Under the pieces are notes generated by a model. That model saw nothing but the letters and a program-made list of their open reading frames with translations, was not told the origin of the DNA and ran no database searches. From Gammaproteobacteria bacterium (GTDB lineage Bacteria > Pseudomonadota > Gammaproteobacteria > Pseudomonadales > Pseudohongiellaceae): a stretch of DNA of 64,000 nucleotides. Numbering within the stretch: position 1 is the stretch's first letter; every line of letters begins with the position of its first letter. The translations under genes and the position numbers were made by a program. Shown piece after piece: positions 30,796 through 56,807 of this stretch. The stretch is taken from the NCBI GenBank assembly GCA_030828385.1, contig JAURCS010000006.1:19012-83011 (forward strand), in the 5' to 3' direction.

Positions 30796-31067
30796 TATTC
30801 CTTGCTTGCGGAGCAAGATAGATGCTAACTACAATCTGGTGTGAAGACGTAAACCTGTAACTGGTGCCAGTTAGATTGGACGGCATAACCATCGCAAATA
30901 TTGGAATTTTTCAGAGGAAGCTCGACGAGGTTGGAATACCTGTTTATTCTTACCAGACACAAATTGTCCGGATTAACGGACTACTTTCCCCAGCCGGGGT
31001 AATGGAACAGAAAAGGGCTAAAATACCCGCAGTTTGATTTTCCTTGTCTTGGCTTGTAGGTGATGCA
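30796..31067. other. Intergenic region before DUF1592 gene
   Basis: I see no gene in this 272 bp stretch. It runs from the repeat copy at 30756-30795 to the SD AGGTGA of the DUF1592 gene. Promoter elements are not clear. Confidence 0.3.
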
Positions 31068-33473: not shown

Positions 33474-33503
33474 CGGTAGACAGGACAGAAAACGGAGCAA
33501 AGC

Positions 33504-34787: not shown

Positions 34788-34821
34788 AATTTTGAGAACA
34801 GAAAATAGAGAAGAGGCGGTA

Positions 34822-37604: not shown

Positions 37605-39116
37605 TTACTCCGGCGCGAGAGAAGGCGCTGGTTGCTGGGGCGTGTTGGGTGCGCGCCACGGCTCGACGTTCACGGCAGGGAAGTAAGTTGACAAGCGCTG
37701 TTTTACCGCTTCCAGAGCGGGATCATCGGCCAGATTGGTCCACTCGTTGGTATCGTTTTCATGATCGTAGAGTTCCTCGGCGCCATCGGCATAACGGGTG
37801 TAGCGATAACGCGGACCTCGCACTGAATGATTGTTCTGGCCCCAGGTACTCAGCACAGCGCGATCCCACTCCATGTCCGGATTCTCCAGAAGAGGCATCA
37901 GGCTGTCCCCACCTTCCAGGTGATTCGGTGCCTCCAGTCCCGCCAGTTCGACCAGGGTCGGATACAGATCCATGGAAGACACGGGCACATCGGAACGGCT
38001 GCCTGGTGAGGTAACCCCGGGAGCAACAATAATCAGTGGTACCTGCAGCGCTACTTCCCACAGGGTTTCTTTTTCACGCTGGTTCTTTTCACCAAGTTGG
38101 TAGCCGTGGTCACCCATCATGATAATGATGGTGTTATCGGCACGCCCACTCTCATCGAGAGCATCCAGCAGTCTGCCCACTGCGGCATCGGCCACGCTGA
38201 CACTGGACAGGTAAGCCTGCACCGCTTCTTCCCAGGCGCCGGCTTCCATGATGGGTTTCATACGCTCAGTGGAGTGATGCGCCGGATCAATATCATCCAG
38301 GTCATTTTCAAGATAAGGCGGTGTCTGCACGCTTTCCAGAGGATATAGATCAAAAAATTCCTGCGGGTTGTACCAGGGGGCATGGGGTCGATAGATGCCG
38401 GCGCCGATAAACCGGGACTGGTTCAATGCATTGGTCTCTCCCATGCGTTGCACAACATAGTTGCTGGTCATGCCGTCGATGGTGGCTTCGTAATTGCTGA
38501 CCACGGGGCCCCAGTTGAACTGCAACTGGTTCACAGCAGCAGGTTTGATCTCATCAGGTAACTGCCAGTCCAATGCTGGCCAGAAGTCATCCCAGGCATT
38601 CACATCATTAAACCCGGGATGCCCGCCAGGAAAAAACGTATGGGCATGGAAAATCTTGCCGGCTCCAAAACTCATATATCCTGAATCCCGGAAATAACGG
38701 GGCAGGGAAGCATAGTTTTCAAACTCGGGCATTTGTCGCCAGTCCTGACCGTTGTTGTAAACCCCGGAACTGGAAGGCCGTCTGCCAAACAGGGCGGCTG
38801 TACGAATGGCATTACATTGTGGCGCAATGGTGTGCGCATTGGTAAAAATCATTCCGCGTGAAGCCAACTCGGTCATGTTTGGTGTGATGGCCTGCGAATC
38901 CCCCATTGGCGCTATCATGGTATTGAGGTCATCCACCATGATCAGCAGTACATCCGGTCGCTCACCCTGACCTGCAGCCGGGCGAATCAGTGTCGATTGC
39001 ACGGGCGAAGCGTCTGCGTCAGTAACTGATTCATCCATGTCCGGTGTCTGACCACAGCCAGCCACCAACCCGGATAGGGCTATAGCCAAACCTGCATGAA
39101 AATACGCTTTCTTCAT
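37605..39116 (-). CDS. Lipoprotein sulfatase (iduronate-2-sulfatase-like) with CNAIR active site
   Basis: The 503-residue protein has a lipobox (SGLVAGC, Cys21). The sulfatase fold is clear: VLLIMVDDLN with the metal-binding Asp62-Asp63, FTNAHTIAPQC, LFGRRPSSSGVY and MMGDHGYQLGEKNQREKETL with the second metal cluster. The formylglycine site is C101-N-A-I-R105, where C-x-P-S-R is usual. This still fits the broader C-x-(P/A)-x-R motif accepted by maturation enzymes. Similarity is to arylsulfatase/iduronate-2-sulfatase types that act on sulfated polysaccharides. Its product may link to the G8-domain proteins about 3 kb downstream; that is inference. Confidence 0.88.
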   Translation of the reverse strand: MKKAYFHAGLAIALSGLVAGCGQTPDMDESVTDADASPVQSTLIRPAAGQGERPDVLLIMVDDLNTMIAPMGDSQAITPNMTELASRGMIFTNAHTIAPQCNAIRTAALFGRRPSSSGVYNNGQDWRQMPEFENYASLPRYFRDSGYMSFGAGKIFHAHTFFPGGHPGFNDVNAWDDFWPALDWQLPDEIKPAAVNQLQFNWGPVVSNYEATIDGMTSNYVVQRMGETNALNQSRFIGAGIYRPHAPWYNPQEFFDLYPLESVQTPPYLENDLDDIDPAHHSTERMKPIMEAGAWEEAVQAYLSSVSVADAAVGRLLDALDESGRADNTIIIMMGDHGYQLGEKNQREKETLWEVALQVPLIIVAPGVTSPGSRSDVPVSSMDLYPTLVELAGLEAPNHLEGGDSLMPLLENPDMEWDRAVLSTWGQNNHSVRGPRYRYTRYADGAEELYDHENDTNEWTNLADDPALEAVKQRLSTYFPAVNVEPWRAPNTPQQPAPSLAPE

Positions 39117-41685: not shown

Positions 41686-44304
41686 CTAACGGCTTACGAC
41701 GAGGCTCTGTCCGGGAACAGGGCCACCCGCGCTGCCGGGGGGGCCACCGCCGCCACGGATATCACCAGTGGAGACCAGCTTGACCCACAAGGCGTCGTTG
41801 TCTTTGTAATAGGAGGTGGCATTGGCCTTGCGTAGTGCTTCCAGGCTGCTTTGCTGCGCACCTGAATCTGCTGCAGTGAATCCTGGCAGTTCGAACATTA
41901 CCCACGAGCCGGCATCCATCTCAGTCAGGCTGAGGTTCACGGATTCTCTTTCGGTGCTTACCTTGTACTGCGTGCCGGCGCGCACATTGGTTGTCCCGTT
42001 AGGCGTAAATTCATGACCATTGCGGCTGAGTACAACAGGTATCGAGGGCGGACGAACCCCCCTGATACGGCCGCCACCTGGGGCGATTTCAAGGGTAGCA
42101 GCAGCGCCAGCCCCGAAGCCTAAAGGACCACCACCGCCGCCGACATTCATGCGTCCGATATCACCCGTGCACACATAAGCGTTCCAGGTGGGCCTGGCTT
42201 CACAGGCGTCATCGGGGTCGATGCCGGTCTCATTGATGATATAGGAATTGGGGATGCCGGTGATGGTGCCGTCCCTGTCGTTGAAGACCGAGGTCAGGTA
42301 AACCGCATTGCCATAATCATCGTTGCTCCACCGGTTGTCGATCGGCGGGTAATATACCGGCTTGGCATCGACGAATGTGGAGCGCGCTACCGTGTTATTG
42401 GAGCTCATGCCGAAGCTGGTAAACAGCAGGTAGGAGATCGCCCCGGTCTTGCGGGTGTCATTGTCCTCGTAATTGATGAAGGTGTTGTTGTCCAGTTCAT
42501 GATGGGAGTCATAGAACTCGTAGCCGCGGATAGGGAAATCCGCGACAGCGGGTTGCGGCAGGCTGCGACCGTAGGCCAGTTCAGCGGGCTCGCGGGGGTT
42601 GCCGATATTGCCGGATTCACCCACGAACAGCGAGTCAACCACCCGTGACGTATACAGGGATGAGCCACCGCCAGTGGCATGGGTGAAGCCAATACCGTTG
42701 TCTGCCATCTTCAGGTTCTTGTAAAGGTGCATCTGACCCCTGGCCCAGATACCACTGTTGCGGTTTTTGTAGGCAGTAAAATCCTCAACGACGGACTCCA
42801 CTTGCGGGCTGTTCGGGTCAGCAGGATCGGCGAGGGCTATATACCCACCCACGGCGAAATGGCCATCGGCCCGGGGGGCACGGTCGCCCATGAAAGCGTC
42901 AAAGTTGGAATGGGCGACGTTGCCCTTGAACTCGCGGAACTTCGTACGGCGCGGCCAGGTGTTGAGGCTGTCCTCCGAACCTTCGAACGCACCGGTGGGA
43001 TGCACGGGGAAGGCAAACCAGAATCCGGTCGAGTCTGAGCCCGCAGCCACGTTGTTGATGTAGGTATTTTCCGGATTGGTAATCCAGAAAGACGAGGCTG
43101 TGTTGTCAGAAGGGATCAGGATTTCCGGGTGGTCCTGGCCGGTGGTTTTGAAGTTCAAACCGTCCGGGGACGCCCCGAACGGGCCAAGGTTGGTCGGATC
43201 GCAGGGCAGGCTGGTGTGGCACTTGGTCTGGATTGCCAGATTGCTGATGTACTGGTTGCCTTTCTCGATACCGTCTTCCATAAAGAAGCAGTGGCCCACA
43301 GTATTGTAGGTTACGTTATTCTCAACCTGCAGGTTGTTGGTGCCGTGGACCGTCACACAGCGGTTGTAGGTGTCGTGGATCGCCGAGTTCCTGACGTACT
43401 GTCCCGCACCAGCATCACCGACCAAATGCCAGTGTATCGGGTAGCGCGCAAGCTCCAGGTTCTGGCCCATGCGATAGAGCTCAACACCCTCGACATACAT
43501 CTTGCTGGTGACCATGCCCATAATGTGGCCGCCAAAGAAAGTCTCTTCAGCAGAGTCGGAGGCCTGCACCTTGATATTGCGCGTCAGCAAACCCACTTCA
43601 CCGCGCTCATCCACCCCGAAGGTGATCTCGCCGTAGTGCATGTACTCCAGGGGCTCATCCAGGGTAATGGCGTTAGCGCTGATGGCTGTGATATGTCGTG
43701 TTTCAGCCTGGCGTGGATTGTAATCTGTCGAGGCGAGGACAATCTCGTCACCCACCTGCCACTGGTCAGCGTTCAGCACATCAATGGTGTTGCTGCCAGC
43801 CTCGGCGGTCCTGGCCAGCTTGGTCCAGGCATTGCTGCGGTTGCCGTGCAGGTTCAGGGTGCCACCGGAGAGCATGATGCCACGATCGCCCATGCCCATC
43901 AGCTGTTCATCCTTGACCTTGTCAGTGAGGGTGATGGTAGCCTTGCTTGTGTGGGGGCGGGCTTCGGTGCCTATCTCCAGTTCGCCGAATACCATAATCC
44001 ACTCGGTGGTCAGTTCAAGATCAGTGTTGTCAGAAAAACGGAGTTTGCCGTTGATGGTCAAGCCGGCCAGTGCCGGCGGGCTGACATCAAGAATCATGTC
44101 CTGGTCACTCGCAATGACGACCCTGTCGCCAGCCGCTGGCACCTTGTTGTCTGGCCAGGAGGCAGGATCGGACCAGCGTGCTTCCTGGGCCATGGCAAGG
44201 GGAGCGCCGCCAAGTAGCAAACACACTGGTAAGACTCTGCGAAATAATTGCATGAGTAAACGAGTTGGTCGTGTCAGAAAGGACATGTGTGAACAGCTTG
44301 ACAT
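41686..44304 (-). CDS. G8-domain, CEMIP/TMEM2-like secreted beta-helix protein A
   Basis: The protein is 872 residues, starting at the ATG at 44304 after AGGGGA. The signal peptide ends near LLLGGAPLAMA-QE (about residue 39). A G8 domain follows (from about 44): ARWSDPASWPDNKVPAAGDR, LDVSPPALAGLTINGKLRFS, LELTTEWIMVFGELEIGTE. A right-handed beta-helix comes next, with RYPIHWH (287-293), NRCVTVHGTNNLQVENNVTY (from 314) and HCFFMEDG (338-345). Further blocks are AAGSDSTGFWF, ADNGIGFTHATGGG, SLFVGESGNIGNP and DFPIRGYEFYD, and a C-terminal TSYYKDNDALWVKLV. The block order matches animal CEMIP/TMEM2. A Gly/Pro-rich linker precedes the final VVSR. The substrate is unproven; hyaluronan-like glycans are the obvious guess. 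Confidence 0.88.
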   Translation of the reverse strand: MSSCSHMSFLTRPTRLLMQLFRRVLPVCLLLGGAPLAMAQEARWSDPASWPDNKVPAAGDRVVIASDQDMILDVSPPALAGLTINGKLRFSDNTDLELTTEWIMVFGELEIGTEARPHTSKATITLTDKVKDEQLMGMGDRGIMLSGGTLNLHGNRSNAWTKLARTAEAGSNTIDVLNADQWQVGDEIVLASTDYNPRQAETRHITAISANAITLDEPLEYMHYGEITFGVDERGEVGLLTRNIKVQASDSAEETFFGGHIMGMVTSKMYVEGVELYRMGQNLELARYPIHWHLVGDAGAGQYVRNSAIHDTYNRCVTVHGTNNLQVENNVTYNTVGHCFFMEDGIEKGNQYISNLAIQTKCHTSLPCDPTNLGPFGASPDGLNFKTTGQDHPEILIPSDNTASSFWITNPENTYINNVAAGSDSTGFWFAFPVHPTGAFEGSEDSLNTWPRRTKFREFKGNVAHSNFDAFMGDRAPRADGHFAVGGYIALADPADPNSPQVESVVEDFTAYKNRNSGIWARGQMHLYKNLKMADNGIGFTHATGGGSSLYTSRVVDSLFVGESGNIGNPREPAELAYGRSLPQPAVADFPIRGYEFYDSHHELDNNTFINYEDNDTRKTGAISYLLFTSFGMSSNNTVARSTFVDAKPVYYPPIDNRWSNDDYGNAVYLTSVFNDRDGTITGIPNSYIINETGIDPDDACEARPTWNAYVCTGDIGRMNVGGGGGPLGFGAGAAATLEIAPGGGRIRGVRPPSIPVVLSRNGHEFTPNGTTNVRAGTQYKVSTERESVNLSLTEMDAGSWVMFELPGFTAADSGAQQSSLEALRKANATSYYKDNDALWVKLVSTGDIRGGGGPPGSAGGPVPGQSLVVSR

Positions 44305-44524
44305 AATGGCTTCCCCTAAATAGTCGTATAAGCAGGAATGAAACATTCTCATTCCCTATCTTAAGTGATGGTATAACCGAAGTTTGTGAATTAAAAATGA
44401 AAATGTGAATAGCCCACGCTCATCCAGGCTTTCGGAACCTCTGAAAAACCCCAATAGGCCCAAAACACCAGCTTCGCAAATAGGGCCAACTCTGGTTGTT
44501 ACACCCCGATTATTCCTGCTGATC

Positions 44525-45397
44525 TTATTGCCCGCCACCTGGCCGGCCTCTGCTGCAACCTGGCGTTGTACAAACTGTTACTTCGTGAATGTAACGATTC
44601 ATACCGTTTTCAACCCGGAACTGCTGACTGGCAGGGGTTCCCGGATGATAAGGCCCGAGTCCGGCATCAAGCCAGGAAAAGTTGTGAAAAATGCTCACGG
44701 CACCCATGGTCTCATCGATGACGAAGCGGCGGCTGCCGGTGTTAATCGGTTGCGGGAATGCCCCCATGGTGCAGGTCTGTCCCTGGGGGTCGCGGGTGCC
44801 TGTGTAAATGCGGCCCTCAAGTCGAGCACAGGGCGTACCGTGCGGTACGGGCAGAAAGGGATCGCCCCAGTTGTTGATATAGGCCTCGGCTGCTGCCTTG
44901 ATAACGCCCCTCATGTCACGCTGGTCTTCGGGGATTACGCCCCAATCCTCTTGCTGAGTGTATGAAAGAAAGACATCTGCGCCGAACACCCAGTCACCCT
45001 CATCGGTGACCACTGATTCCATGATGGTCACCTCATCCTCATCATTCACTTCCATACGCGTGTGGATCACATAAGGGTGCTCATGGGTGGCTGCCACAAA
45101 CTCTGTGAAGGTGGCGCACAGGGTGGTATCAAAGAAACTGCGCGTAAAGTCGGCAGTAATGGCTTCGGACAACATACCTTCGGCAATGTCCGTGGGCTTA
45201 TCATTCTCTCCGTAATAGGCAGCGGCCGCCAGGGGTAGCATGGCAGCATTGCCGGTCGTCTGAGCTTCAACATAGGTGTCGGTTAACTCCTGGAGCGACT
45301 CACGAGTGCATGCCGCTGAGGCATCTGCAATAAATGCTATGCCAGCAAGGGCGATTGACCAGTACTTAATTGTGAAGCTTGTTATTTTTCTTTTCAT
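44525..45397 (-). CDS. Secreted protein resembling fungal DUF8021 proteins
   Basis: The 290-residue protein has a signal peptide (YWSIALAGIAFIADASAA) and an N-terminal Cys. Conserved-looking blocks are LTDTYVEAQTTGNAAMLPLA, TTLCATFTEFVAATHEHPYV, TIMESVVTDEGDWVFGADVF, WGVIPEDQRDMRGVIKAAAE, VPHGTPCARLEGRIYTG and RRFVIDETMGAVSIFHNF. This pattern resembles a secreted family best known from ascomycete fungi (DUF8021), including an NTF2-like part and a Cys-containing C-terminal part. I place it from memory of the motif style. It lies on the same strand between the two G8 genes A and B, 49 bp from the stop of B and 221 bp from the start of A. It is likely part of their unit. The function is unknown. 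Confidence 0.7.
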   Translation of the reverse strand: MKRKITSFTIKYWSIALAGIAFIADASAACTRESLQELTDTYVEAQTTGNAAMLPLAAAAYYGENDKPTDIAEGMLSEAITADFTRSFFDTTLCATFTEFVAATHEHPYVIHTRMEVNDEDEVTIMESVVTDEGDWVFGADVFLSYTQQEDWGVIPEDQRDMRGVIKAAAEAYINNWGDPFLPVPHGTPCARLEGRIYTGTRDPQGQTCTMGAFPQPINTGSRRFVIDETMGAVSIFHNFSWLDAGLGPYHPGTPASQQFRVENGMNRYIHEVTVCTTPGCSRGRPGGGQ

Positions 45398-45445
45398 TGA
45401 CGTAAGTCCTTCCAGGATTTCAGATATATTGATTCCAGTAATTTT

Positions 45446-48016
45446 TTAACGACTGACTTTCATTGTCACACCGCCGCTGTGCCCACCGCGGCCGCTGTCT
45501 CCAGGAGAGACCAGCTTGACCCACAACGCATCGTTGGCCTTGAAGTAAGACGTGTCATCGGCCTTGCGCAGCGCATCCAGGCTGGCAACTGACATACCCG
45601 AGTCTGCCCGGGTGAACTCCGGAATCTCAACGATAACCCACGCGTCTTCTTCCAATTCAATCATGTGGAGCTCCATCTCCGAGCGCTCAGTAGTCGCCTT
45701 GAACTCGGTATTGGCCCGGATGTTGGTGCCTACAGGGATGCTGATTTCATAGCCCTCACGACTCAGGATCACGGGTGGCAGGCTCGCATCGATGCCGAAG
45801 CCACCGCCGAAGCTTATTGGGTCAAAGGCAAGGCCTTTACCGTTTATAAAGCTCATGCGGCCGACATCGCCGGTACACAATGCGGCGTTCCAGTCGGGCT
45901 TGATTTCACAGGCTTCTTCGTCAACAGCAATGCTGTCATTGACGCCGTCGTGGATGACTACGAAAGAAGGTCTGCCAAGGCCAAGGGAGCCGTCCCGATC
46001 CCTGAATACGGCAGTCTTGTAGGCCAGACTGCCTGCGTTATTGTCGTTACCCCATTTTTTTTCCATCGGGGGATAAAACACCGGTTTGGCGTTCTCGAAT
46101 TTGAGGTTCTCCACGGCATTGTTGGAGCTGGCGCCGAAGCTGGTGTATAGCAGGTGGGAGATCGCTCCCGTCTTGCGGGTGTCATTGTCCTCGTAGTTCC
46201 GGAACGTGGTGTTCATGACGTCATGCCGGTAGTCGTAGTACTCGTAGCCACGGATCGGGAAGTCCGGCATCGTGGGCTTCGGGAAAGTGCGGCCATAGGC
46301 TTTCTCCTCGGGCGTTGAAGGGTTGCCGACATTTTCGGTTTCGCCCACAAACAGGGAATCGACAACCTGTGAGGAATATTCAAGTCGGCCATCACCGCCG
46401 GCATGGGTGAAGCCCATGGCGTTGTCGGCGAACTTCACATTCCTGAACAGATGCAAGCTGCCACGTCCCCAGATGCCGCCATTGCGGTTCTTGTAGGTAG
46501 TGAGATCCTCGAATACAGAGACCAGCGCCTTGCTGTTGGGATCGGCGGGATTCTCACGGCCACCATGGGAGGAGCCGGTAACACCAAAGGTGTTATCCGG
46601 GTTGATATTACGGTCGAACATAAAGCCATCATAGGCGGAGTGGGCAGTGTTGCCCCTGAACTCACGGAAATTTGTGCGCCTGGGCCAGGTGTTCAGGCTG
46701 TCATCAGAACCTTCGAACGCGCCGTTCGGGTGCTCTCCCAATGACATCCAGAATCCGTTTGAGTCGGATCCCGCAGCCACGTTGTCCACATAGGTATTGT
46801 CCGGGTTGGTGATCCAGTAAGAGGCCACCGTGTTGTCCGAAGGCAGCAGAACATCCCGTGATTGCTGACCTCTCGGTGCGCTTGCCTGCCGCACTTCAGT
46901 AGACTCACCTTCCGCGGAGAGATTGGTTGGTTCGCAGGGTCTGGTGGGATGGCACTTGACCTGGATCGCCAGGTTGTTGACAAACTCATTGCCGTGCTCA
47001 ATGCCATCTTCCATGAAGAAACAGTGGCCGACGATGTTGTAGGTCACGTTGTTCTCGACTCTCAGGTCGTTGGTGCCGTGCACCGTCACACAACGATTGA
47101 AGGTATCGTGTATGGCAGCATTCCTGACGTATTGGCCTTTGCCGCCGTCGCCCACCAGATGCCAGTGAATCGGATAGCGGGCAAGCTCCAGATGTTGCCC
47201 CATACGATTAAGTTCAACACCTTCCACATACATTTTGCTGGTGACCATCGCCATAATGTGACCGCCGAAGTAGGTCTCGGCCGCATCAGAAGAAGCTTGA
47301 ACCTTGATATTGCGCGTCAGCAATCCCACTTCGCCGCGCTCATCCACGTCAAAGGTAATCTTGCCAAAGTGCATATACTCCAGGGGCTCGTCCAGTGTAA
47401 TGGCGTTGCCGCTGATCGCGGCAATTGTGCGACGCTCAGCCTGTCTGGGATCGTAATCCGTCGACGCGAGAACAATCTCGTCACCCACCTGCCACTGGTC
47501 AGCATTCAACACCATGATGGTGTTGCTGCCTGCCTCGGCGGTATTGGCCAGCTTGGTCCAGGTGTTGGTGCGGTTACCGTGCAGGTTCAGGGTGCCACCG
47601 GAGAGCATGATGCCGCGATCGCCCATGCCCATCAGCTGTTCGTCCTTGATGTTGTTGGTGAGGGTGATGGTGGCCTTGCTTGTATGGGGACGAGCTTCGG
47701 TGCCGATCTCCAGTTCGCCGAATACCATAATCCACTCGGTGGTCAGTTCAAGGTCAGTATCGTCAGAAAAACGGAGTTTGCCGTTGATGGTCAAGCCGCT
47801 CAGTGCCGGCGGGCTGACATCAAGTATCACTTCCTTGTCGCTGGCAATGACGACATTCTCGCCTGCCGCTGGGACTTTGTTTTCTGGCCAGGTGGCAGGA
47901 TCGGACCAGCGGGCTTCCTGGGCCATCGCAAGGGGAGCACTGCTGAGTAGCAAACACACTGGCAGAATCCTGCTGAGTAAACGCATTAGTAAGGATGCGC
48001 GAGAATAGTTTGTCAT
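45446..48016 (-). CDS. G8-domain, CEMIP/TMEM2-like secreted beta-helix protein B
   Basis: The 856-residue paralogue is closest to protein A, co-linear over almost its whole length. It has a signal peptide (MRLLSRILPVCLLLSSAPLA), a G8 domain (from ARWSDPATWPENKVPAAGEN at about residue 35), and beta-helix motifs RYPIHWH (280-286), NRCVTVHGTNDLRVENNVTY (from 307) and HCFFMEDG. Further blocks are AAGSDSNGFWM, YKNRNGGIWGRG, SLFVGETENVGNP and DFPIRGYEYYD. The CEMIP-type Cys pair is in ACEIKPDWNAALCTGD, and the C-terminal TSYFKANDALWVKLVSPGD is followed by a linker and KVSR. The SD AAGGGA precedes the ATG at 48016. It is the first gene of a minus-strand run B, DUF8021-like, A. Confidence 0.88.
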   Translation of the reverse strand: MTNYSRASLLMRLLSRILPVCLLLSSAPLAMAQEARWSDPATWPENKVPAAGENVVIASDKEVILDVSPPALSGLTINGKLRFSDDTDLELTTEWIMVFGELEIGTEARPHTSKATITLTNNIKDEQLMGMGDRGIMLSGGTLNLHGNRTNTWTKLANTAEAGSNTIMVLNADQWQVGDEIVLASTDYDPRQAERRTIAAISGNAITLDEPLEYMHFGKITFDVDERGEVGLLTRNIKVQASSDAAETYFGGHIMAMVTSKMYVEGVELNRMGQHLELARYPIHWHLVGDGGKGQYVRNAAIHDTFNRCVTVHGTNDLRVENNVTYNIVGHCFFMEDGIEHGNEFVNNLAIQVKCHPTRPCEPTNLSAEGESTEVRQASAPRGQQSRDVLLPSDNTVASYWITNPDNTYVDNVAAGSDSNGFWMSLGEHPNGAFEGSDDSLNTWPRRTNFREFRGNTAHSAYDGFMFDRNINPDNTFGVTGSSHGGRENPADPNSKALVSVFEDLTTYKNRNGGIWGRGSLHLFRNVKFADNAMGFTHAGGDGRLEYSSQVVDSLFVGETENVGNPSTPEEKAYGRTFPKPTMPDFPIRGYEYYDYRHDVMNTTFRNYEDNDTRKTGAISHLLYTSFGASSNNAVENLKFENAKPVFYPPMEKKWGNDNNAGSLAYKTAVFRDRDGSLGLGRPSFVVIHDGVNDSIAVDEEACEIKPDWNAALCTGDVGRMSFINGKGLAFDPISFGGGFGIDASLPPVILSREGYEISIPVGTNIRANTEFKATTERSEMELHMIELEEDAWVIVEIPEFTRADSGMSVASLDALRKADDTSYFKANDALWVKLVSPGDSGRGGHSGGVTMKVSR

Positions 48017-48269
48017 AATTTTTTCCCTTATTTTTTCTTTATTTTTTTCCCAGAGTCGAACAGGTAAGGATGAACCATCCTTATAACTAATGGTGCATGA
48101 TGGTATAACTGAAATTTGTTAATAAAAAGTAAAAACAGGAAAAATCCCACGCCAAAGCAGATTTTGGTACACTGCCGCCCTGAAGTCTGTTGGTCATGGA
48201 TTGCTCTGTTGCGGCAACCTCGAACCATTCAAACCAGAAGAATCAACACTGTTAATATCATTCAAATCA
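48017..48269. promoter_or_regulatory. Divergent promoter region between G8-B and cytochrome c
   Basis: These 253 bp separate two divergent genes. They are AT-rich on the G8-B side. No strong operator is evident, and I see no gene in it. Confidence 0.3.
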
Positions 48270-48680
48270 ATGTTTAGAATTCCCATCATGCCCAATTTTC
48301 GCCGTTTGTTAGTCGTTGCCACTGCAGTTTTAGCCTCGGCCAGCTGTGCAGCAGATACTACCATTACGCCGGATATTGAACACGGCAAGGCAACATTTAA
48401 CACCATGTGCGGCGTCTGCCATTCAGTGCAGAAAACAGGCGGTCCTGTAGAGGGGCCCAATCTTCTTGGGCTTGTCGGCCGCGAGGCAGCCAGCCAAGCT
48501 GATTTTGCCAAGTACTCGCCGGCGCTCAAGACCTCCAATCTCACCTGGAGTGAAGAGACCCTTGACCGTTTTCTGGTGAACCCCATGGCGATGGTGCCAG
48601 GCACCTTGATGCCAATGTTGATACGTGACGACAAGACCCGGGCGGATGTGATTGCCTATCTCGCGACGCTTAAACAGTAG
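48270..48680 (+). CDS. Exported class I cytochrome c
   Basis: The protein is 136 residues from ATG 48270; ATG 48288 is a possible alternative. It has a signal sequence (RRLLVVATAVLASASCAA) and a single haem site CGVCH (C47, C50, H51) in FNTMCGVCHSVQKTGGPVEG. The distal Met lies in NPMAMVPGTLMPM, as in mitochondrial-type cytochrome c. It is a small periplasmic electron carrier. The SASC sequence is not a canonical lipobox. It is divergent from G8-B and convergent with the ferritin-like gene. Confidence 0.9.
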   Translation: MFRIPIMPNFRRLLVVATAVLASASCAADTTITPDIEHGKATFNTMCGVCHSVQKTGGPVEGPNLLGLVGREAASQADFAKYSPALKTSNLTWSEETLDRFLVNPMAMVPGTLMPMLIRDDKTRADVIAYLATLKQ

Positions 48681-48836
48681 GACTGCGGTATATTACGACA
48701 GGCACATTTCACGATGGGTCATCCGGCGCTTCGTTCAAAATGACGGATGATAATCATATAAGACCGGCAGACACCGGTTAACTGGTGGCTCACCATTAGT
48801 CCATTAGACCATTAGCAATTTTTACCCAAGACCACA

Positions 48837-49697
48837 TCACACTTCATTCAGAAGCTGGTCATACATCTGGATATTGAAATCGGCCGGCAAAAGGTGCTCG
48901 ATCGAGCGGGCAAAGTCGCGGGTCTCCTGCAGCATCAGATGCGTAACGCGTTTATTGGCAGCAGCATTGAGTCCTGGATTGAAGCCCAGACTCAGCGGGT
49001 CGAACGGCACTGCGGAACCTTTGGTTGGCAAGTACCGGGCAATTGAATTAAGAGACCCCATCATGATGGCCTGTGCCAGCGCGACCTCAGGCGCGGAACT
49101 GCTTCGGTAGGCCGAATCCAGCATCAACAACATGCTCCAGTAATTCATATTGCCGAGCCAGGCCAGGGCCCTCAGATCAGTATCCTCAATGCTGGTCGGA
49201 CGTCCATCATAGGCCGTCGGATTTATGGGTACATCATAGCTCGGATAGCGCGCATCGGAAGCGGGTAGCGACCAGATGTCAGGAGTGTTCTTGATCAGTG
49301 GATGGGACGCTTCATAGAGGGAATGAAAGAACTTGAAGTGGCCGAACTCTCCTTCGGCTTTGACGTCGCCGATTTCCTGAAACCAGGCGTTGAAATCCAG
49401 ATTCAGATCACCGACTTGCTTGAGTTCAGCAAGCGTGGTGATAACGGCATCGTAGAGTTTTCCGACATGATTGGCTGTAATTTCGCCACCGACGATTTCA
49501 GCATACTCTGGCTTGAGTGCATAAGCACTGTAGAGGTACTGAACCATGAGGTCATGTTCTATTTTGGGGCCTTCCTTCAAGAGCCGTATAAGCTCGAGAT
49601 AAGGATCGTCGAAACTTCGCTTTACCGTGGAAAACCGGTGCGTCTTCCTGGCGGCGAGAGCCCTGCCTGGGCCTGCGACCATACCAAACATGGCCAT
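48837..49697 (-). CDS. Ferritin-like domain protein, Tat signal interrupted by a frameshift
   Basis: The protein from ATG 49697 is 286 residues. It shows a ferritin-like helical domain: LLKEGPKIEHDLMVQYLYSA with the Glu/His pair of a di-iron site, EGEFGHFKFFHSLYEASHPL, and later QETRDFARSIEHLLPADF. It belongs to the ferritin-like/VioB-like family. The visible protein starts MAMFGMVAGPGRALAARKTH, the tail of a signal. In the -1/+1 related frame immediately upstream, from ATG 49737, lies MKDKEFSRR. Joining the two across one base at about 49705-49716 gives SRRxLLRSMAMFGMV, a classic twin-arginine signal. The gene is thus probably frameshifted or contains a sequencing error. Confidence 0.78.
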   Translation of the reverse strand: MAMFGMVAGPGRALAARKTHRFSTVKRSFDDPYLELIRLLKEGPKIEHDLMVQYLYSAYALKPEYAEIVGGEITANHVGKLYDAVITTLAELKQVGDLNLDFNAWFQEIGDVKAEGEFGHFKFFHSLYEASHPLIKNTPDIWSLPASDARYPSYDVPINPTAYDGRPTSIEDTDLRALAWLGNMNYWSMLLMLDSAYRSSSAPEVALAQAIMMGSLNSIARYLPTKGSAVPFDPLSLGFNPGLNAAANKRVTHLMLQETRDFARSIEHLLPADFNIQMYDQLLNEV

Positions 49698-49737
49698 ACT
49701 GCGCAGCAGCGCGGCGGGAAAATTCCTTGTCTTTCAT
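49698..49737 (-). pseudogene. Out-of-frame N-terminal piece (SRR Tat motif) of the ferritin-like gene
   Basis: ATG at 49737 encodes MKDKEFSRRAA. With a one-base shift the following codons read LLRSMAMFG in the frame of the downstream gene. It is part of the same ancestral reading frame. Confidence 0.5.
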
Positions 49738-49884
49738 AGGAGGTCGTTCCCAAAATCGAAAGCTATTTATCGATAGCTATATTCAATAATTGTAACCGCT
49801 CTTTCCAGCAAAAATTTAATAGAAATAAGAAAAAACGGGGGACATCTCTTGATGGATTAGTTCTGAACCTGCCTTTACAGGGGG

Positions 49885-50286
49885 TTAGCGATCAACCTGC
49901 TCGACCATATATTCGATTGCTTCGATAATTTCTTTATCAGAGAGGTCAAGTCGCTCACCCTTTTTTGGCATCACACCAGTGTTGCCTGAGAATCCGTTCA
50001 AGGCATGATCGATAAGTGTATCCATGCCCTGGGCGATGCGTGGAGCCCAGGCTTCGGCATCGCCTAATGCTGGTGCGCCACCAACACCGGGTGGGTAGTG
50101 GCAGGCGACACAGACGTTGTTGTAGACCTGCTCTCCATTCATTCCAGTGGCTGCTGCATCAGCACTTGAAACAGGCGCGCCTGATCCTTCCGATGCTGCC
50201 AGAGCGATCGACGTGAAGGCCACGCCGATGAGCATGCCGAAAAGCAGCATGTATTTGCTGTAAGCTGGCTGGTATAGGTCCCGCAT
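49885..50286 (-). CDS. Cytochrome c5-like exported cytochrome
   Basis: The 133-residue protein has a membrane or signal segment (YMLLFGMLIGVAFTSIALAA) and a cytochrome c5-type domain. The haem motif is CVACH (C59, C62, H63), then YPPGVGGAPALGD, LIDHALNGFSGNTGVMPKKG with the distal Met, and LSDKEIIEAIEYMVEQV. It is a periplasmic carrier. It is divergent from G8-C and on the same strand as the ferritin-like gene upstream of its stop. The three redox genes sit between the two G8 pairs. Confidence 0.88.
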   Translation of the reverse strand: MRDLYQPAYSKYMLLFGMLIGVAFTSIALAASEGSGAPVSSADAAATGMNGEQVYNNVCVACHYPPGVGGAPALGDAEAWAPRIAQGMDTLIDHALNGFSGNTGVMPKKGERLDLSDKEIIEAIEYMVEQVDR

Positions 50287-50561
50287 GGAGCTGTTCCTGT
50301 GTTTTGAGCATCGCGATTATAACGTATCGCAATCCTACGGACTATCCAGCAAGCGCCTTTGCAGGGGGGCAGTTATTCAGACGTAGCTCTTGCCTTGCAC
50401 CGCAGTAGTTAACTCCTACCTGGCAACAAGTGACAAGAATTAGTGAAGTTTCGCCACAGGCTTGTCTTACAGTGACTTAATGTTGGAAAATCCTGCTATC
50501 CTTTAATTTCTTCAATTACAGAAATTGAAAAAATACTTTCCAAAACTAGAGGTCTGGTTCC
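50287..50561. promoter_or_regulatory. Divergent region between cytochrome c5 and G8-C
   Basis: These 275 bp hold no gene. The leader of G8-C ends with GAGGTCTGGTTCC before the ATG, similar to the GGGGAGTCTGGTTCA leader of G8-D, so both genes appear to share a translation-initiation context. Confidence 0.35.
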
Positions 50562-53099
50562 ATGCGAATTAACAGTCGTTTATTGTTTTTATTAATACTT
50601 TTTACTGCCTGCTTACCCACCCAGGCACAGGCGCAGGGGCCTTCTGCGGTAAAAAGCGGCATGTGGTCTGATTCATCCACCTGGTCCGGTGGCGTGCTGC
50701 CAGCGGAAGGTGACATAGTCACCATTGGCGAAGGTATGAACATAGTCCTGAATGTCAGTCCACCTGCACTGAATGGTATTAACCTGAACGGCAGTCTGAC
50801 TTTTGCTGATGGCGCGGAACTGGAGCTTACTACAGAGTGGATCCTGAACCGTGGCAGGTTGGAGATTGGCACTGAAAGCGATCCTTTCACGGGTAAGGCA
50901 ACCATTACGCTGACGGACAATGTTAAGGGCGAAAACATCAATGGCATGGGCGACCGCGGTATTCTGATGGCGCCAGGTGTGCTGAGTCTGCATGGTGATC
51001 GGGAAAATTCCTGGACCAAGCTGGCGGAAACCGCCGAGGCCGGTGCAACACGTATTGAGGTACTTGATGCCAGCGGCTGGAAAGTCGGTGACAAAATCGT
51101 CCTGGCCTCAACGGATTTCAATCCCCGTCAGGCCGAGAGACGCCACATTACACGCATCAGGCGCAACCGCATTACCCTGGATGAGCCACTGGAATACATG
51201 CATTTCGGGGAAATCACCTACGGCGTGGATGAACGTGGCGAAGTGGGTATGCTGACGCGCAATATCAAGGTGCAGGCGTCTGTTGATGCCGATGAAAACT
51301 ACTTTGGCGGACATATGATGGCAATGGCCGGTAGCCGAATGAATGTTGCCGGCATCGAGTTGAATCGTATGGGCCAGCACATGGAGCTCGCCCGCTACCC
51401 GATTCACTGGCATATAAACGGCGACGTGACCGGGCAATATATCAAGAACTCCGCGATTCACGACACCTACAACCGCTGCGTGACTATACATGCCACGGAT
51501 AACCTGCTGGTCGAAAACAATGTTACCTATAACACCGTAGGCCACTGCTTCTTTATGGAAGACGCTGTTGAAACGGGTAACATTGTCGTCAAGAACCTGG
51601 GCATCCAGACCAAGTGTCATCCGACACTGCCATGCCAACCCACAGGACTTTTTCTGCCCATTCAGAATGAAGATGGCCAGAAGGCCGATCATATTCTGCT
51701 ACCCTCGGATAATACCGCGGCGACATTCTGGATCACCAATCCGGATAACATCTATAGGGATAATGTGGCAGCCGGATCTGATTCCACAGGCTACTGGATG
51801 GCCTTTCCAACCAATGGTATCGGCGCCTTTCTGGGTACGGAGAAGGGCGAGAATACCTGGCCCGGACGTAGCCCGCTGCGCGAGTTCAGCGGCAACGTCG
51901 CCCACTCGAATTTTGACGGGTTTATGCTCGATCGCGGCCCAAGGCCTGACAACACTTTTGGTATCGCTGGCCCCAACCTGATCAGCCGCGCCGATCCCGG
52001 TGATCCGAATAGCGAGATAGTGGTCGCACATTTTGACAATTTTACCGGCTATAAGAACAGCAATAACGCTATCTGGGGCCGTGGTGAAATGCATCTCTAT
52101 ACCAATCTGAAACTGGCCGATAACGCGATTGGCTTCACCCATGCGTCCGGTGCTCCAGGTGCCGCGCCTTACACTTCACGGGTCGTCGACTCGCTGTTCG
52201 TGGGGGAGAGCGACAATATCGGTAACCCCAGCAGACCTGAAGAAATCGCTTACGGTCGCAGCCTACCAGCCGCTGCTCCGGATTACCCGATCCGCGGTTA
52301 CGAGTATTATGATTTCCATCATGAAGTGGAAAATGTGAAGTTCGTGAACTACGAAGCCAACGAGATTCGCGATGCAGGTGCGCTCTCCTATCTTTTATTC
52401 ACAAGCTTCGGCATGAGCACTTCGAACTGGGTGAAGAGCATCACATTCGAGAATGCCAAGCCGGTTAGTTTTCCGCCGATCCAGAGTCGCTGGGCGGCAG
52501 ATTTAGGGCGTAGTTCCGCCTATAAGAGTGCGGCCTTCCAGGACCTGGACGGCTCGGTCAGCGGAATTCCCGGTGCTTACGTTGTCATCGATAACGGCAT
52601 CGCAGCCGATGAAGAAACCTGCCAGATGAAGCAAGCCTGGAACGCTGCAGTGTGTGAGGGAGACATGGGTCGCCTTAGCATTTCCGGTAATTTCGGTGGC
52701 TTCCAGAATAGCCCCATTACCGAGCCGATCATCCTCGAACGCAATATGAAGCGCTTCGAATATGTCGGACAAACCACCATCGGTAGTGGTGCGCAGATAA
52801 GTGTTGAAACTGCCAGAGAGGAGCTGTCCCTGACCCTGTCGGAAATGGACAAGGGGTCCTTCGTGATTTTCGAACTTCCCGAATTCACCAGTGCCGACAA
52901 TGGCAAGCAACAAAGCAGTCTGGCTGCTCTGAAGAGCGCCAGTGAAACCTCATACTACAAGGATGAAGATTCCCTGTGGGTCAAACTTGTGGCCGCGGAG
53001 ATTGAAGCGCCAGCTGGTCCCGCAGCGCCTTTTAATCCCTTTGCTGCCGGTGGTCCCAGTGGGCCCTGTACAGGAATCTGTATCGACGTCAGCAGGTAA
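50562..53099 (+). CDS. G8-domain, CEMIP/TMEM2-like secreted beta-helix protein C
   Basis: The 845-residue paralogue is closest to protein D. It has a signal peptide (LLFLLILFTACLPTQAQA). The G8 domain spans about 34-145: GMWSDSSTWSGGVLPAEGD, VLNVSPPALNGINLNGSLTF, ELTTEWILNRGRLEIGTE. The beta-helix has RYPIHWH (278-284), NRCVTIHATDNLLVENNVTY (from 304), HCFFMEDA, SLFVGESDNIGNP and DYPIRGYEYYD. The CEMIP-like Cys pair is in TCQMKQAWNAAVCEGD, and the C-terminal block is TSYYKDEDSLWVKLV. A Pro/Ala/Gly-rich linker with two extra Cys leads to the final DVSR. In NRCVTIHATDN, Gly of the usual HGT is Ala. A strong terminator follows. It is monocistronic or leads only weakly into the small lipoprotein gene. 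Confidence 0.88.
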   Translation: MRINSRLLFLLILFTACLPTQAQAQGPSAVKSGMWSDSSTWSGGVLPAEGDIVTIGEGMNIVLNVSPPALNGINLNGSLTFADGAELELTTEWILNRGRLEIGTESDPFTGKATITLTDNVKGENINGMGDRGILMAPGVLSLHGDRENSWTKLAETAEAGATRIEVLDASGWKVGDKIVLASTDFNPRQAERRHITRIRRNRITLDEPLEYMHFGEITYGVDERGEVGMLTRNIKVQASVDADENYFGGHMMAMAGSRMNVAGIELNRMGQHMELARYPIHWHINGDVTGQYIKNSAIHDTYNRCVTIHATDNLLVENNVTYNTVGHCFFMEDAVETGNIVVKNLGIQTKCHPTLPCQPTGLFLPIQNEDGQKADHILLPSDNTAATFWITNPDNIYRDNVAAGSDSTGYWMAFPTNGIGAFLGTEKGENTWPGRSPLREFSGNVAHSNFDGFMLDRGPRPDNTFGIAGPNLISRADPGDPNSEIVVAHFDNFTGYKNSNNAIWGRGEMHLYTNLKLADNAIGFTHASGAPGAAPYTSRVVDSLFVGESDNIGNPSRPEEIAYGRSLPAAAPDYPIRGYEYYDFHHEVENVKFVNYEANEIRDAGALSYLLFTSFGMSTSNWVKSITFENAKPVSFPPIQSRWAADLGRSSAYKSAAFQDLDGSVSGIPGAYVVIDNGIAADEETCQMKQAWNAAVCEGDMGRLSISGNFGGFQNSPITEPIILERNMKRFEYVGQTTIGSGAQISVETAREELSLTLSEMDKGSFVIFELPEFTSADNGKQQSSLAALKSASETSYYKDEDSLWVKLVAAEIEAPAGPAAPFNPFAAGGPSGPCTGICIDVSR

Positions 53100-53120
53100 A
53101 TTCGGGCTTGCTGAATGAAT

Positions 53121-53150
53121 AAAAAACCCCGGCGTATACCGGGGTTTTTT
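53121..53150 (+). terminator. Strong intrinsic terminator after G8-C
   Basis: A 12-bp stem AAAAAACCCCGG (53121-53132) and CCGGGGTTTTTT (53139-53150) with loop CGTATA. It lies 21 bp after the stop codon. Confidence 0.9.
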
Positions 53151-53281
53151 GATTTGGCAGACTGTAAAATGAAATTTTTCTGGCGCATTCCATTTCTTTT
53201 GATATAAGTTAGCAAATAAAGTTAATCTGATCCCATTCATTGTATTTTTTTTGCATTTTTCATTCCTACTGGAGAATATTT

Positions 53282-53518
53282 ATGTCGCGTTTAGTCCTGC
53301 TGGCCCTGGTATCGGCCCTGTTTTCCTGCTCTAGCGTCACCGATAAATCGGGCCTCTACAGCGAAACTGACAATGTACTGACAGATCGAGGTCGTGAGAT
53401 GTATTTCGATTCCAATGCCAATCGTCGAGGAAGAATTGTTTGTACATACAAAGATGGCAGCTTTTTAAAAGTGGAAGCTGGCTATACCTGCCCGGCTGTG
53501 TATCCTGATCAGGACTAG
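53282..53518 (+). CDS. Small lipoprotein of unknown function
   Basis: This 78-residue protein starts at the ATG at 53282 after GGAG and has a lipoprotein signal (MSRLVLLALVSALFSC, Cys16). The mature part contains RGREMYFDSNANRRGRIVCT and ends CPAVYPDQD, with two Cys that might form a disulfide. I do not recognise a family. It lies between G8-C and G8-D. Confidence 0.6.
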   Translation: MSRLVLLALVSALFSCSSVTDKSGLYSETDNVLTDRGREMYFDSNANRRGRIVCTYKDGSFLKVEAGYTCPAVYPDQD

Positions 53519-53595
53519 TCACTGGTTACTACAATTAATATGATTCTGGTGATAAATCAGGATAGCTGGCTTGTCCCGTTAAAGGAACACAGTTG

Positions 53596-54168
53596 ATGAA
53601 GTTCGACACCAATCATGCAGCACAGCTGATCGCGGTAGCCATCGTTGTAACGGCTATCACGCAGTTGGTGTATGTCATTCTCGGTGGCGGTGGAAATTCG
53701 CATAAAGCCTATCCTATCTGGCTAATTGAGACGCTTTCAGCCTTGGTCGTAGCGCTGTTTTCTTTCGTCATAATCAAGTGCAATGCCTTGGTGGGGGGGC
53801 TCTTCGGCCGTAGCCGGAATATTTAATGTGATTCAGACTGGAATGGGACTGACTATCTTCTACCAGCTGGGTTATGGTGGTGAAACGCCGCCTAATGAGG
53901 TCTTCTTCCCCGTGCTGCGAATTTCATTCTTTCTCTTTTACTGCCAAAGCAGCAACCGGTGTGGCAGCTATCACGCTGGGCATGGTGCTGTGGCAGACTC
54001 TCGATGGAGGGGTGTAGCGCAATGGTTGGTGCGCTACTGTTGAATGTCGCCGCAATGATATTGGGACTGGGCGTGGTGCCTTTCGTGGGTGCAGTTGGCG
54101 CAGTCGCTGCAGTGCTTTACGCAGTTGTGCTGATTCTTGGGATCAAGCCAGTTTTTTATTTCCGATGA
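53596..54168 (+). pseudogene. Multi-spanning membrane protein gene with frameshifts
   Basis: Four consecutive open segments in successive frames encode hydrophobic helices. The first (53596-53826, ATG start with an AAGGAACA SD) is AAQLIAVAIVVTAITQLVYV and ETLSALVVALFSFVIIKC. After a G7 tract (about 53790-53796) the next frame reads AVAGIFNVIQTGMGLTIFYQ. Then comes FSFTAKAATGVAAITLGMVL, and finally AMVGALLLNVAAMILGLGVV through ILGIKPVFYFR at 54168. Together they make a membrane protein of about 190 residues broken by at least two frameshifts and one stop. The family is unknown. Confidence 0.6.
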
Positions 54169-54308
54169 AAAAGCGGTGAGAAAAGGCAACCTTGTTATTG
54201 AACCCTTTATTGAAACGCTTAAGCTATGCAATTGCATAGAAAATAATGCTAATGTTGCATTTAAAAAAACGGAAATAAAAAAACTTGAGTAAAGGGGAGT
54301 CTGGTTCA

Positions 54309-56807
54309 ATGCGTATGTACAGTCGTTTCTTTCTTCTTTCATTGCTTGTTACAACCTGCTTTAGTGTCAGTGTCAGAGCACAAGCACAGGCGAAGGGCCC
54401 GGAGGCGATAAAAGACGGGATGTGGTCTGATACAGCCACCTGGTCCGGCGGCACTCTGCCGGGGCAGGGTGACGTAGTCACAATTGGTGCAGGCATGGAC
54501 GTTATCCTCAACGTCAGCCCACCGGCACTGAACGGCATCAATCTTAACGGCAGCCTCACATTTGCCGATGGCGAGGAACTGGAACTCACAACCGAGTGGA
54601 TCCTCAATCGAGGCAGGCTGGAGATTGGCACTGAAAGCAATCCTTTCACGGGCAAGGCGATCATTACGCTGACTGATAATATCCCTGATGAGAACATCAA
54701 TGGTATGGGCGACCGCGGCATTCTCATGGCACCTGGGGTACTAAGTCTGCACGGTGATCGGGAGAACTCCTGGACCAAACTGGCGCAAACTGCTGAGGCC
54801 GGTAGCACTCGCATCGAGGTGCTTGATGCCAGTGGCTGGCGTATCGGTGATGAAATTGTGCTGGCTTCAACGGATTTTAATCCCCGTCAGGCCGAAAGGC
54901 GCCATATCACCCGCATAAGACGCAACCGCATCACGCTGGACGAGCCGCTGGAGTACATGCATTACGGTGAAATCACCTACGGCGTGGATGAACGCGGTGA
55001 AGTGGGTATGCTGACCCGCAACATCAAGGTGCAGGGCTCCGAGTCAGCGGAAGAGTCCTACTTTGGTGGTCATATCATGGCGATGGCCGGCAGCCATATG
55101 ACAGTCTCGGGCATTGAGTTATTCCGCATGGGTCAGCACTTGACGCTGGCCCGTTACCCCATCCACTGGCATATCAATGGCGATGTGGCTGGGCAATACA
55201 TTAAAAATTCTGCGATTCACGATACCTACAACCGCTGCGTGACCATACATGGCACCGATAACCTGCGCGTCGAAAACAATGTTACCTACAACACTACCGG
55301 GCACTGCTTCTTTATGGAAGACGGTGTCGAGACAGGAAATCAGGTGGTTAAAAACCTGGGCATCCAGACCATGTGCCATCCGACCCTGCCGTGTGATCCG
55401 ACCCACCTTGGCCCGGGACGGCCTGCCTCCAATGGCCAGAACTCCGAGCATGTTCTGCTTCCCTCGGACAATACGGCGTCGACGTTCTGGATCACTAATC
55501 CGGACAATAGCTATATCGACAATGTGGCGGCGGGTTCCGATGCAGTAGGGTACTGGTTCGCTTTGCCCGTGCACCCCATCGGGGCGTTCGAAGGCACCGA
55601 GAGAAGTGCCAATACCTGGCCGCGTCGCACCAAAGTCCGCGAGTTCAGCGGCAACACTGCCCATTCAAATTTTGACGGCTTCATGTTTGACCGTGGCCCC
55701 AGGCCCGATAACACATTCAGTGTGGCGGGCAGCAACTACCATGTAAGCTATGCGGATCCGGCTGATACGGACAGTGAGATGCTGGTGTCTGAGTTCAAGA
55801 ATTTTACTAGCTACAAGAATCGCAATGGCGCCGTCTGGGGCCGAGGCGAACTGCACCTGTTCGAAAATCTCAGGGTTGCCGATAATGCTATCGGCTTCAC
55901 CCATGCGGCATCCGCCGTTGGTCAGGCCCCCTATACCTCAAAGGTTGTAGATTCTATTTTTGTCGGGGAGTCCGACAATATCGGTAATCCAGAAACACCA
56001 CAGGAAATTGCCTACGGCCGCAGCATGCCCAACGCCATTCCGGATTTCCCGATTCGTGGCTACGAGTTTTACGACATGCGTCATGATGTGGTGAACACGA
56101 CCTTTGTAAATTTCCAGCCCAACGAGCTTCGCGATGCCGGTGCACTCTCCTATCTAATGTATACCAGCTTCGGGATGAGCACAGAGAACGCAATTGAGGG
56201 CGCAAATTTCACCAACGCCAAGCCGGTCAGTTTCCCGCCTGTGGTACGCAGATGGGCTTCTGATTTTGGCCGCGGCAATGCCTGGCGCGGTGCGGCGATC
56301 CATGACCGGGACGGTTCGGTCAGTGGTGTCTCTGATTCCTACATTGTTCTGGACAACGGCATCGCCTCTGATGAGGATGCCTGTGAGATCAGGCCAGAGT
56401 GGGGGGCTGCGGTGTGCGAAGGTGATTTTGGTTACTTCGGCCTTGGTACGAGCATGGGTTTCGGCAGTGGCCCTATTGTAGAACCGATAATGCTAAGCCG
56501 TAACGCCAGGCGCTGGGAGTACACCGGGCAAACCACAATTCGCAGTGGCGCCGAGGTCAGGGTAGAAACAGCCAGAGATTCCCTGTCCCTTTCCCTGAGC
56601 CAAATGGATAAAGGTTCTTCCTTAATTTTTGAACTGCCCGGTTTCAACAGCGCCGCTGCAGGCGCGCAGCAAATGAGTCTTGCTGCCTTGAAGGGCGCTA
56701 ATAACACGTCATACTACAAGGATGACGATTCTTTATGGGTTAAGCTTGTGGTCGACAATACTGAGGGCTCTGATAATGCAAGTAGTAGTATCGAGGTCAC
56801 TCGATAG
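54309..56807 (+). CDS. G8-domain, CEMIP/TMEM2-like secreted beta-helix protein D
   Basis: The 833-residue protein starts at the ATG at 54309 after AAAGGGGAG and has a signal peptide (FFLLSLLVTTCFSVSVRAQA). It is most similar to protein C, with the same block order. The G8 domain is GMWSDTATWSGGTLPGQGD and on from residue 38. The helix has RYPIHWH, NRCVTIHGTDNLRVENNVTY, HCFFMEDG, SIFVGESDNIGNP and DFPIRGYEFYD, and the Cys pair is in ACEIRPEWGAAVCEGD. The C-terminal TSYYKDDDSLWVKLV is followed by a short acidic/Ser linker and IEVTR. A perfect terminator follows. It is the last of the four paralogues. Confidence 0.88.
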   Translation: MRMYSRFFLLSLLVTTCFSVSVRAQAQAKGPEAIKDGMWSDTATWSGGTLPGQGDVVTIGAGMDVILNVSPPALNGINLNGSLTFADGEELELTTEWILNRGRLEIGTESNPFTGKAIITLTDNIPDENINGMGDRGILMAPGVLSLHGDRENSWTKLAQTAEAGSTRIEVLDASGWRIGDEIVLASTDFNPRQAERRHITRIRRNRITLDEPLEYMHYGEITYGVDERGEVGMLTRNIKVQGSESAEESYFGGHIMAMAGSHMTVSGIELFRMGQHLTLARYPIHWHINGDVAGQYIKNSAIHDTYNRCVTIHGTDNLRVENNVTYNTTGHCFFMEDGVETGNQVVKNLGIQTMCHPTLPCDPTHLGPGRPASNGQNSEHVLLPSDNTASTFWITNPDNSYIDNVAAGSDAVGYWFALPVHPIGAFEGTERSANTWPRRTKVREFSGNTAHSNFDGFMFDRGPRPDNTFSVAGSNYHVSYADPADTDSEMLVSEFKNFTSYKNRNGAVWGRGELHLFENLRVADNAIGFTHAASAVGQAPYTSKVVDSIFVGESDNIGNPETPQEIAYGRSMPNAIPDFPIRGYEFYDMRHDVVNTTFVNFQPNELRDAGALSYLMYTSFGMSTENAIEGANFTNAKPVSFPPVVRRWASDFGRGNAWRGAAIHDRDGSVSGVSDSYIVLDNGIASDEDACEIRPEWGAAVCEGDFGYFGLGTSMGFGSGPIVEPIMLSRNARRWEYTGQTTIRSGAEVRVETARDSLSLSLSQMDKGSSLIFELPGFNSAAAGAQQMSLAALKGANNTSYYKDDDSLWVKLVVDNTEGSDNASSSIEVTR

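Follow-up and report, generated by a model that had tools for sequence, protein, structure and literature searches.

What would a bacterium do with several relatives of TMEM2 and CEMIP, members of a human protein family whose own function is disputed? This question is raised by a 64,000-nucleotide stretch of DNA (hereafter the window) from a Gammaproteobacteria bacterium of the family Pseudohongiellaceae (assembly GCA_030828385.1, contig JAURCS010000006.1, positions 19,012 to 83,011), which contains a cluster of four genes, here called A to D, for proteins that combine a G8 domain with a CEMIP-type beta-helix. We consider it moderately probable that A to D are secreted polysaccharide depolymerases which share the catalytic core of TMEM2.

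All four reading frames are intact and, counted from the first start codon, encode 840-888 amino acids: A (41686..44352, minus strand, 888 amino acids from the first ATG), B (45446..48016, minus strand, 856 amino acids, the copy that was modelled), C (50562..53099, plus strand, 845 amino acids) and D (54285..56807, plus strand, 840 amino acids from the first TTG). A and D probably begin slightly later, as a later ATG in A (e.g. residue 23) opens a signal peptide that is plausible by eye, and the ATG at residue 9 of D is a likelier start than the first TTG; with these later starts, a Sec-type signal peptide is recognisable by eye in 4/4. Both G8 (PF10162, E 3.5e-25 to 2.2e-31) and, following it in each protein, CEMIP_beta-hel (PF24606, E 3e-79 to 9.6e-82) score above the Pfam curated cut-off in all four, and no NCBIfam model matches any of them at E 0.1. 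A first-pass annotation, made from the letters alone, had described four G8 and CEMIP beta-helix paralogues sharing an ordered series of motif blocks. The four paralogues and the block order are confirmed, and RYPIHWH is found in 4/4; the other strings proved to be consensus forms, 1-2 letters off in at least one copy. It had also treated the cluster as a set of four, which is correct for the window, but the host genome (2.6 Mb in 149 contigs) holds six G8/CEMIP-type genes, the remaining two close together on contig C72. Identity is 67.6% between A and B, and 72.5% between C and D.

The proposed kinship with CEMIP/TMEM2 is borne out at the level of sequence and fold. Searched against PDB sequences, B matched a single entry, human TMEM2 (8C6I, E 2.9e-79), with 227 of 656 aligned residues identical, and the profile of a 54-member bacterial family matched TMEM2 with E 1.7e-126 (426 bits); similarity of this kind is far beyond chance. 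In a keep-length alignment, 129 columns with 98% identity or more across the 54 bacterial sequences carry the same residue in TMEM2. Structure comparison gives the B model the overall fold of the TMEM2 core, well above generic beta-helices. Beyond it, uronate epimerases and lyases are among the most similar folds, and identity to the bacterial protein is 12-16% for the beta-helix lyases and epimerases AlgE, AlgG, K1 capsule lyase, RbmB and PL6. Human TMEM2, also named CEMIP2 and a paralogue of CEMIP, alone stands for the animal family in these comparisons. It has the same G8 domain, CEMIP beta-helix and C-terminal beta-sandwich as the bacterial proteins, which retain its cysteine pairs C309/C332 (a pairing obtained by elimination from the list of unpaired cysteines in the TMEM2 structure paper) and C703/C714. 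What the bacterial proteins, with their signal peptides, lack are the lectin-like parts: lectin-like/GG domain 1 (about 249-421, inserted in the helix of the animal protein and including R265, D273 and D286) is absent, TMEM2 chain 167-339 having no bacterial counterpart (only 8 profile positions separate the stretches that match on either side), and so is the C-terminal lectin-like domain, as B ends at TMEM2 residue 1156 whereas the ectodomain runs to 1383. We read A to D as bacterial members of a known family, forming a branch without lectin domains whose homology to the human proteins is real and deep.

To which residues does this conservation point? The 54 family rows were compared with 12 outside rows, namely TMEM2 and 11 distant bacterial G8 proteins (from Vitreoscilla, Planctomyces, Leisingera (two), Antarctobacter, Ruegeria, Salipiger and Rhodobacteraceae S2214, plus three Acidobacteriota proteins, two of them from one genome). 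These distant proteins have the same G8 domain and beta-helix; their plasmid-borne members are 26-34% identical over parts, and the family profile gives such proteins 104 to 268 bits, against 426 for TMEM2. Requiring identity in at least 53/54 family rows and 12/12 outside rows, 19 positions survive (B numbering): G79, L81, G105, G141, G147, W175, T186, R235, H253, G273, R280, Y281, H284, H286, H313, G330, E336, E340 and N348. Cys309, Cys332, Arg308 and His331, which belonged to the motifs of the first-pass annotation, are lost once the outside rows are added, and several outside rows span the first half of the helix only, so that sites past about residue 350 are not judged at this depth. From the survivors we propose H253-R280-Y281-H284-H286-H313-E336-E340 as a candidate active site. 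These eight are present in 54/54 family members, in all 11 distant proteins and in TMEM2, where their equivalents are H519, R546, Y547, H550, H552, H585, E608 and E612. Within the window, the candidate block lies at 43264..43527 (minus strand) in A (H276, R303, Y304, H307, H309, H336, E359, E363), at 46997..47260 (minus strand) in B, at 51312..51572 (plus strand) in C (H251, R278, Y279, H282, H284, H310, E333, E337) and at 55071..55331 (plus strand) in D (H263, R290, Y291, H294, H296, H322, E345, E349).

In the B model, as assigned by DSSP, three consecutive turns each have one of these residues at the first position after their third strand (IHW-H286, VTV-H313, FFM-E336). The sheet formed by third strands has 10 polar or aromatic sites that are invariant in the family and common to TMEM2, versus 0 and 3 in the other sheets; six of nine third strands were extended one residue past DSSP while those of the other two sheets were not, and without the extension residues (H286, H313, E336 and D468) the count is 6, not 10. 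Two loops obstruct the concave face of TMEM2, whose structure authors weighed a chondroitinase-B-like calcium site and left the active site unassigned (PMC10206443). Because these loops map either side of the site strands, the candidate site is likely to lie on the concave face.

With homology, fold, domain content and invariance observed, we infer that the eight residues meet in space and catalyse, and that the substrate is polysaccharide. A to D would then be exported right-handed beta-helix enzymes that have ancestry and core, not lectin domains, in common with animal CEMIP/TMEM2, and would cut an extracellular polysaccharide in a groove formed by one sheet of the helix. The active site would comprise R-Y-x-x-H-x-H, a further H and E-x3-E on neighbouring turns together with H253, acting as metal ligands or acid/base groups, and the chain may be held further along the same sheet by W401, W423, W516, D468 and R518, which are invariant within the TMEM2-like subfamily. 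As the bacteria keep the helix without the lectin domain, we take the helix to be the core and the lectin domain to serve substrate handling.

The clearest hint of polysaccharide comes from the neighbourhood of the Rhodobacterales group, where a glycosyltransferase is annotated beside the G8 gene in 6/6 plasmid loci (L151, L152, L153, L180, L181 and L182), along with sulfotransferases in 3, GH16 in 2 and O-antigen ligase in 2; the two Leisingera loci among the six are non-independent, gene tables for the plasmids have gaps, the record of Leisingera NJS201, the seventh of this kind, is left out, and these proteins share only 26-30% identity with B.

Several points weigh against a depolymerase. 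Enzymatic activity is a prediction for every bacterial member, and the proximity of the eight residues is read from strand register rather than measured on coordinates. No polysaccharide-utilisation locus was seen in the annotated part of the window, where the neighbours (cytochromes c, SnoaL/NTF2-like proteins, a sulfatase, a sulfotransferase and an amidohydrolase) would equally fit small-molecule catabolism, and GH88 is missing from 14/21 carrier genomes beyond the close relatives. Finally, the TMEM2 mutations R265C, D273N and D286N, and mouse H248 and A303, all map within the lectin-like/GG domain or to its margin (PMC10206443 and the available part of PMC10276149). This could mean that the lectin domain is itself required; since it is absent in bacteria, the TMEM2 data are no test of the candidate site.

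Among the alternatives, the one that survives best, although we think it unlikely, is that A to D are bacterial uronate lyases of hyaluronan or glycosaminoglycan type, acting by beta-elimination through Tyr, His and Arg, with the unsaturated ends removed by GH88. The uronate epimerases and lyases among the closest other folds would suit it, and GH88 occurs in 9/10 G8-positive versus 1/28 G8-negative relatives (Fisher p 5.9e-7, uncorrected for kinship; two of the ten matches, one per side, fall below the Pfam cut-off). However, the G8-positive relatives are confined to two genera, and GH88 is found in just 7 of 21 other G8-positive genomes, two of which (G164 and G442) have identical coordinates and are apparently a single genome. 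GH88 is thus not present wherever the putative depolymerase is; the link holds in close relatives, fails elsewhere and is unproven, which lowers the claim of a uronate pathway and not lyase chemistry as such. The host's own GH88 gene is on another contig (C56), preceded by genes for cytochrome maturation and transporters and followed by DUF1592, DUF1552 and ankyrin genes. As for the animal enzymes, the description of HYBID (CEMIP/KIAA1199) as degrading hyaluronan specifically and in an endo-beta-N-acetylglucosaminidase-dependent manner (PMC6888145, from the text available) decides neither lyase nor hydrolase.

The first-pass annotation had further suggested a glycosaminoglycan theme, which gains no support from this pattern of GH88; no glycosaminoglycan pathway was seen near the cluster. 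Its nearby sulfatase (37605-39116, minus strand) holds up, scoring above the Pfam cut-offs for Sulfatase and SGSH_C, the latter leaving room for a sulfated glycan, but its best NCBIfam model is choline-sulfatase, below cut-off at 181 of 433 bits, and the iduronate specificity is not supported. The protein has the sequence LVAGC, which we take to be lipobox-like, and CNAIR at the usual sulfatase motif site, where sulfatases usually have C/S-x-P-x-R.

Neighbouring genes were surveyed in 78 distinct loci, obtained from the best 80 of 128 stretches in our genome collection that encode relatives; the loci are unequal in length and partly non-independent, their neighbour counts have no background rate, and labels come from a crude call of the longest open reading frames (ORFs) on both strands, ignoring antisense ORF clusters over G8 genes. 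In the window, A and B on the minus strand and C and D on the plus strand flank two c-type cytochrome genes (48201..48680, plus strand, 159 amino acids; 49885..50286, minus strand, 133 amino acids) and a weak ferritin-like gene (48837..49697, minus strand, 286 amino acids, just below the Pfam cut-off); the second cytochrome gene is divergent to gene C, an arrangement that recurs in other loci. It is improbable, in our view, that A to D are redox or metal enzymes partnered with these cytochromes, using an H/H/H/E metal site for oxidative cleavage or oxidising a substrate other than a glycan. A cytochrome c gene from either of the window's two families is found in 16/78 loci, directly beside a G8 gene in 15 of those 16, PQQ-dependent dehydrogenase-like genes (labelled by eye) occur in 5/78, four His and two Glu are fixed in all 66 aligned proteins, and the TMEM2 crystal contains one Ni2+, its location unstated (PMC10206443). 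Yet some of the loci counted share a genome or belong to near relatives, 62/78, many of them short, have no cytochrome, and the available text of PMC10474455 reports a purified TMEM2 ectodomain active with buffer and CaCl2 only. Less probable still, non-catalytic surface or binding proteins with the beta-helix as scaffold would accord with a purified TMEM2 ectodomain that was inactive (PMC10206443) and with human TMEM2, unlike mouse TMEM2, being inactive in cells (PMC10276149, in the part available), but a scaffold alone would hardly account for His, Tyr, Arg and Glu being retained over such great distances, even if a structural metal site could be involved.

Other neighbours are less informative about a polysaccharide substrate. 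A 290-residue protein (44525..45397, minus strand), with a signal peptide by eye and no Pfam match, has a predicted tandem NTF2/SnoaL-like fold, its model showing an alpha-beta pattern twice; matches to the model include Lsd19 and ketosteroid isomerase, and VIA matches span the first half. Its family occurs in 12/78 loci (beside the G8 gene in 9) from Gammaproteobacteria, Alphaproteobacteria and Acidobacteriota. The host's second G8 pair adjoins a MarR regulator, a Rieske/VanA oxygenase, DUF6152 and a sulfatase, and a Croceibacterium plasmid has MarR, G8, a TonB receptor and DUF6152 together. None of these contexts, nor that of the cytochromes, names a substrate. Elsewhere in the window, DUF1592-type (PSD4/PSCyt3), DUF1552 (HXXSHH) and ankyrin genes stand in a row (31044-36462, plus strand); this trio is also the one beside the GH88 gene on C56, and 5 to 6 of 78 further G8 loci contain members of it. 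Two further genes (59494-60891 and 15053-15925, both minus strand) form one family without a Pfam match, present in 16/78 G8 loci and adjacent in only 2.

How the cluster arose was addressed with a quick 63-row tree and a careful 34-row tree, the latter thinned to A to D plus alternate rows from the rest of the family, and leaving out L142, L151, L152 and L153. The mirrored gene pairs had been thought to reflect two duplication rounds, which the trees do not support: A, B and C each group with a protein of another genome, not a cluster neighbour, in both. D does likewise in the quick tree, whereas the careful one puts it, together with C, among five proteins whose branching is unresolved. Recent tandem duplication is accordingly unsupported, the placement of D shifting with sampling. 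The quick tree nests TMEM2 within the bacterial family (fork support 80, drawn open). The careful tree excludes it from the family and includes Vitreoscilla and two Acidobacteriota proteins; a constraint uniting TMEM2 and Vitreoscilla is not rejected there (p-AU 0.146). Branches are long in both trees, which disagree over the origin of the animal gene, and we claim no direction of transfer.

CEMIP_beta-hel was found in 3/398 sampled Pseudomonadota genomes (the host counted), in 4/199 genomes from the phylum to which an Acidobacteria carrier belongs (the carrier counted) and in 10/38 relatives, comprising 7/7 of the host's genus, 3/3 of one other genus of the family and 0/28 of the remainder; sixteen carriers reached via the loci have 1 to 12 matches each, some of them fragments. 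Ten plasmid records hold relatives (nine of ten examined), most annotated 'G8 domain-containing protein', so these proteins, suspected at first to be new, are already known to databases under that NCBI label. No paper on bacterial CEMIP-type proteins was found among the best-ranked matches in the open-access literature, subscription papers lying outside that scope. A phage or viral origin was rejected, with no match in phage records and 0/13 candidate stretches confirmed in viral contigs, and L174, a weak G8 match, was left out because none of its frames above 300 amino acids matched the family profile at E 1. L106 and L108 (G192:C4:829377-830590) are one G8 gene whose beta-helix match runs across overlapping frames of 498 and 648 amino acids, and which is therefore broken or misread; the same genome also has intact G8 copies. 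Contigs titled as Klebsiella pneumoniae or Bordetella parapertussis metagenome-assembled genomes carry the family at L046, L080 and L084, where we suspect wrong bin names.

For the family as a whole, the distant bacterial relatives narrow the choice of catalytic candidates to eight residues that can be changed singly in TMEM2, CEMIP and the bacterial proteins, and the proposal can be checked in the existing crystal structure as well as by mutation, with the lectin-less homologues offering smaller, single-chain models. A bolder and doubtful extension is that the whole G8 beta-helix superfamily, from bacteria to human TMEM2/CEMIP, forms a single class of enzymes built around a cupin-like His/Glu metal site on the helix (TMEM2 H519, H550, H552, H585, E608). 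If so, loss or exchange of metal during nickel or cobalt affinity purification could help explain why TMEM2 was inactive in one study, where the ectodomain was purified by HisTrap (PMC10206443), and active in another, where, according to the accessible text, cobalt resin was used (PMC10474455). Metal loss is one of two readings, since the group reporting activity blames the quality of labelled hyaluronan for the discrepancy (PMC10474455, same text). The lectin domains would, if the extension is true, be an animal addition for substrate handling.
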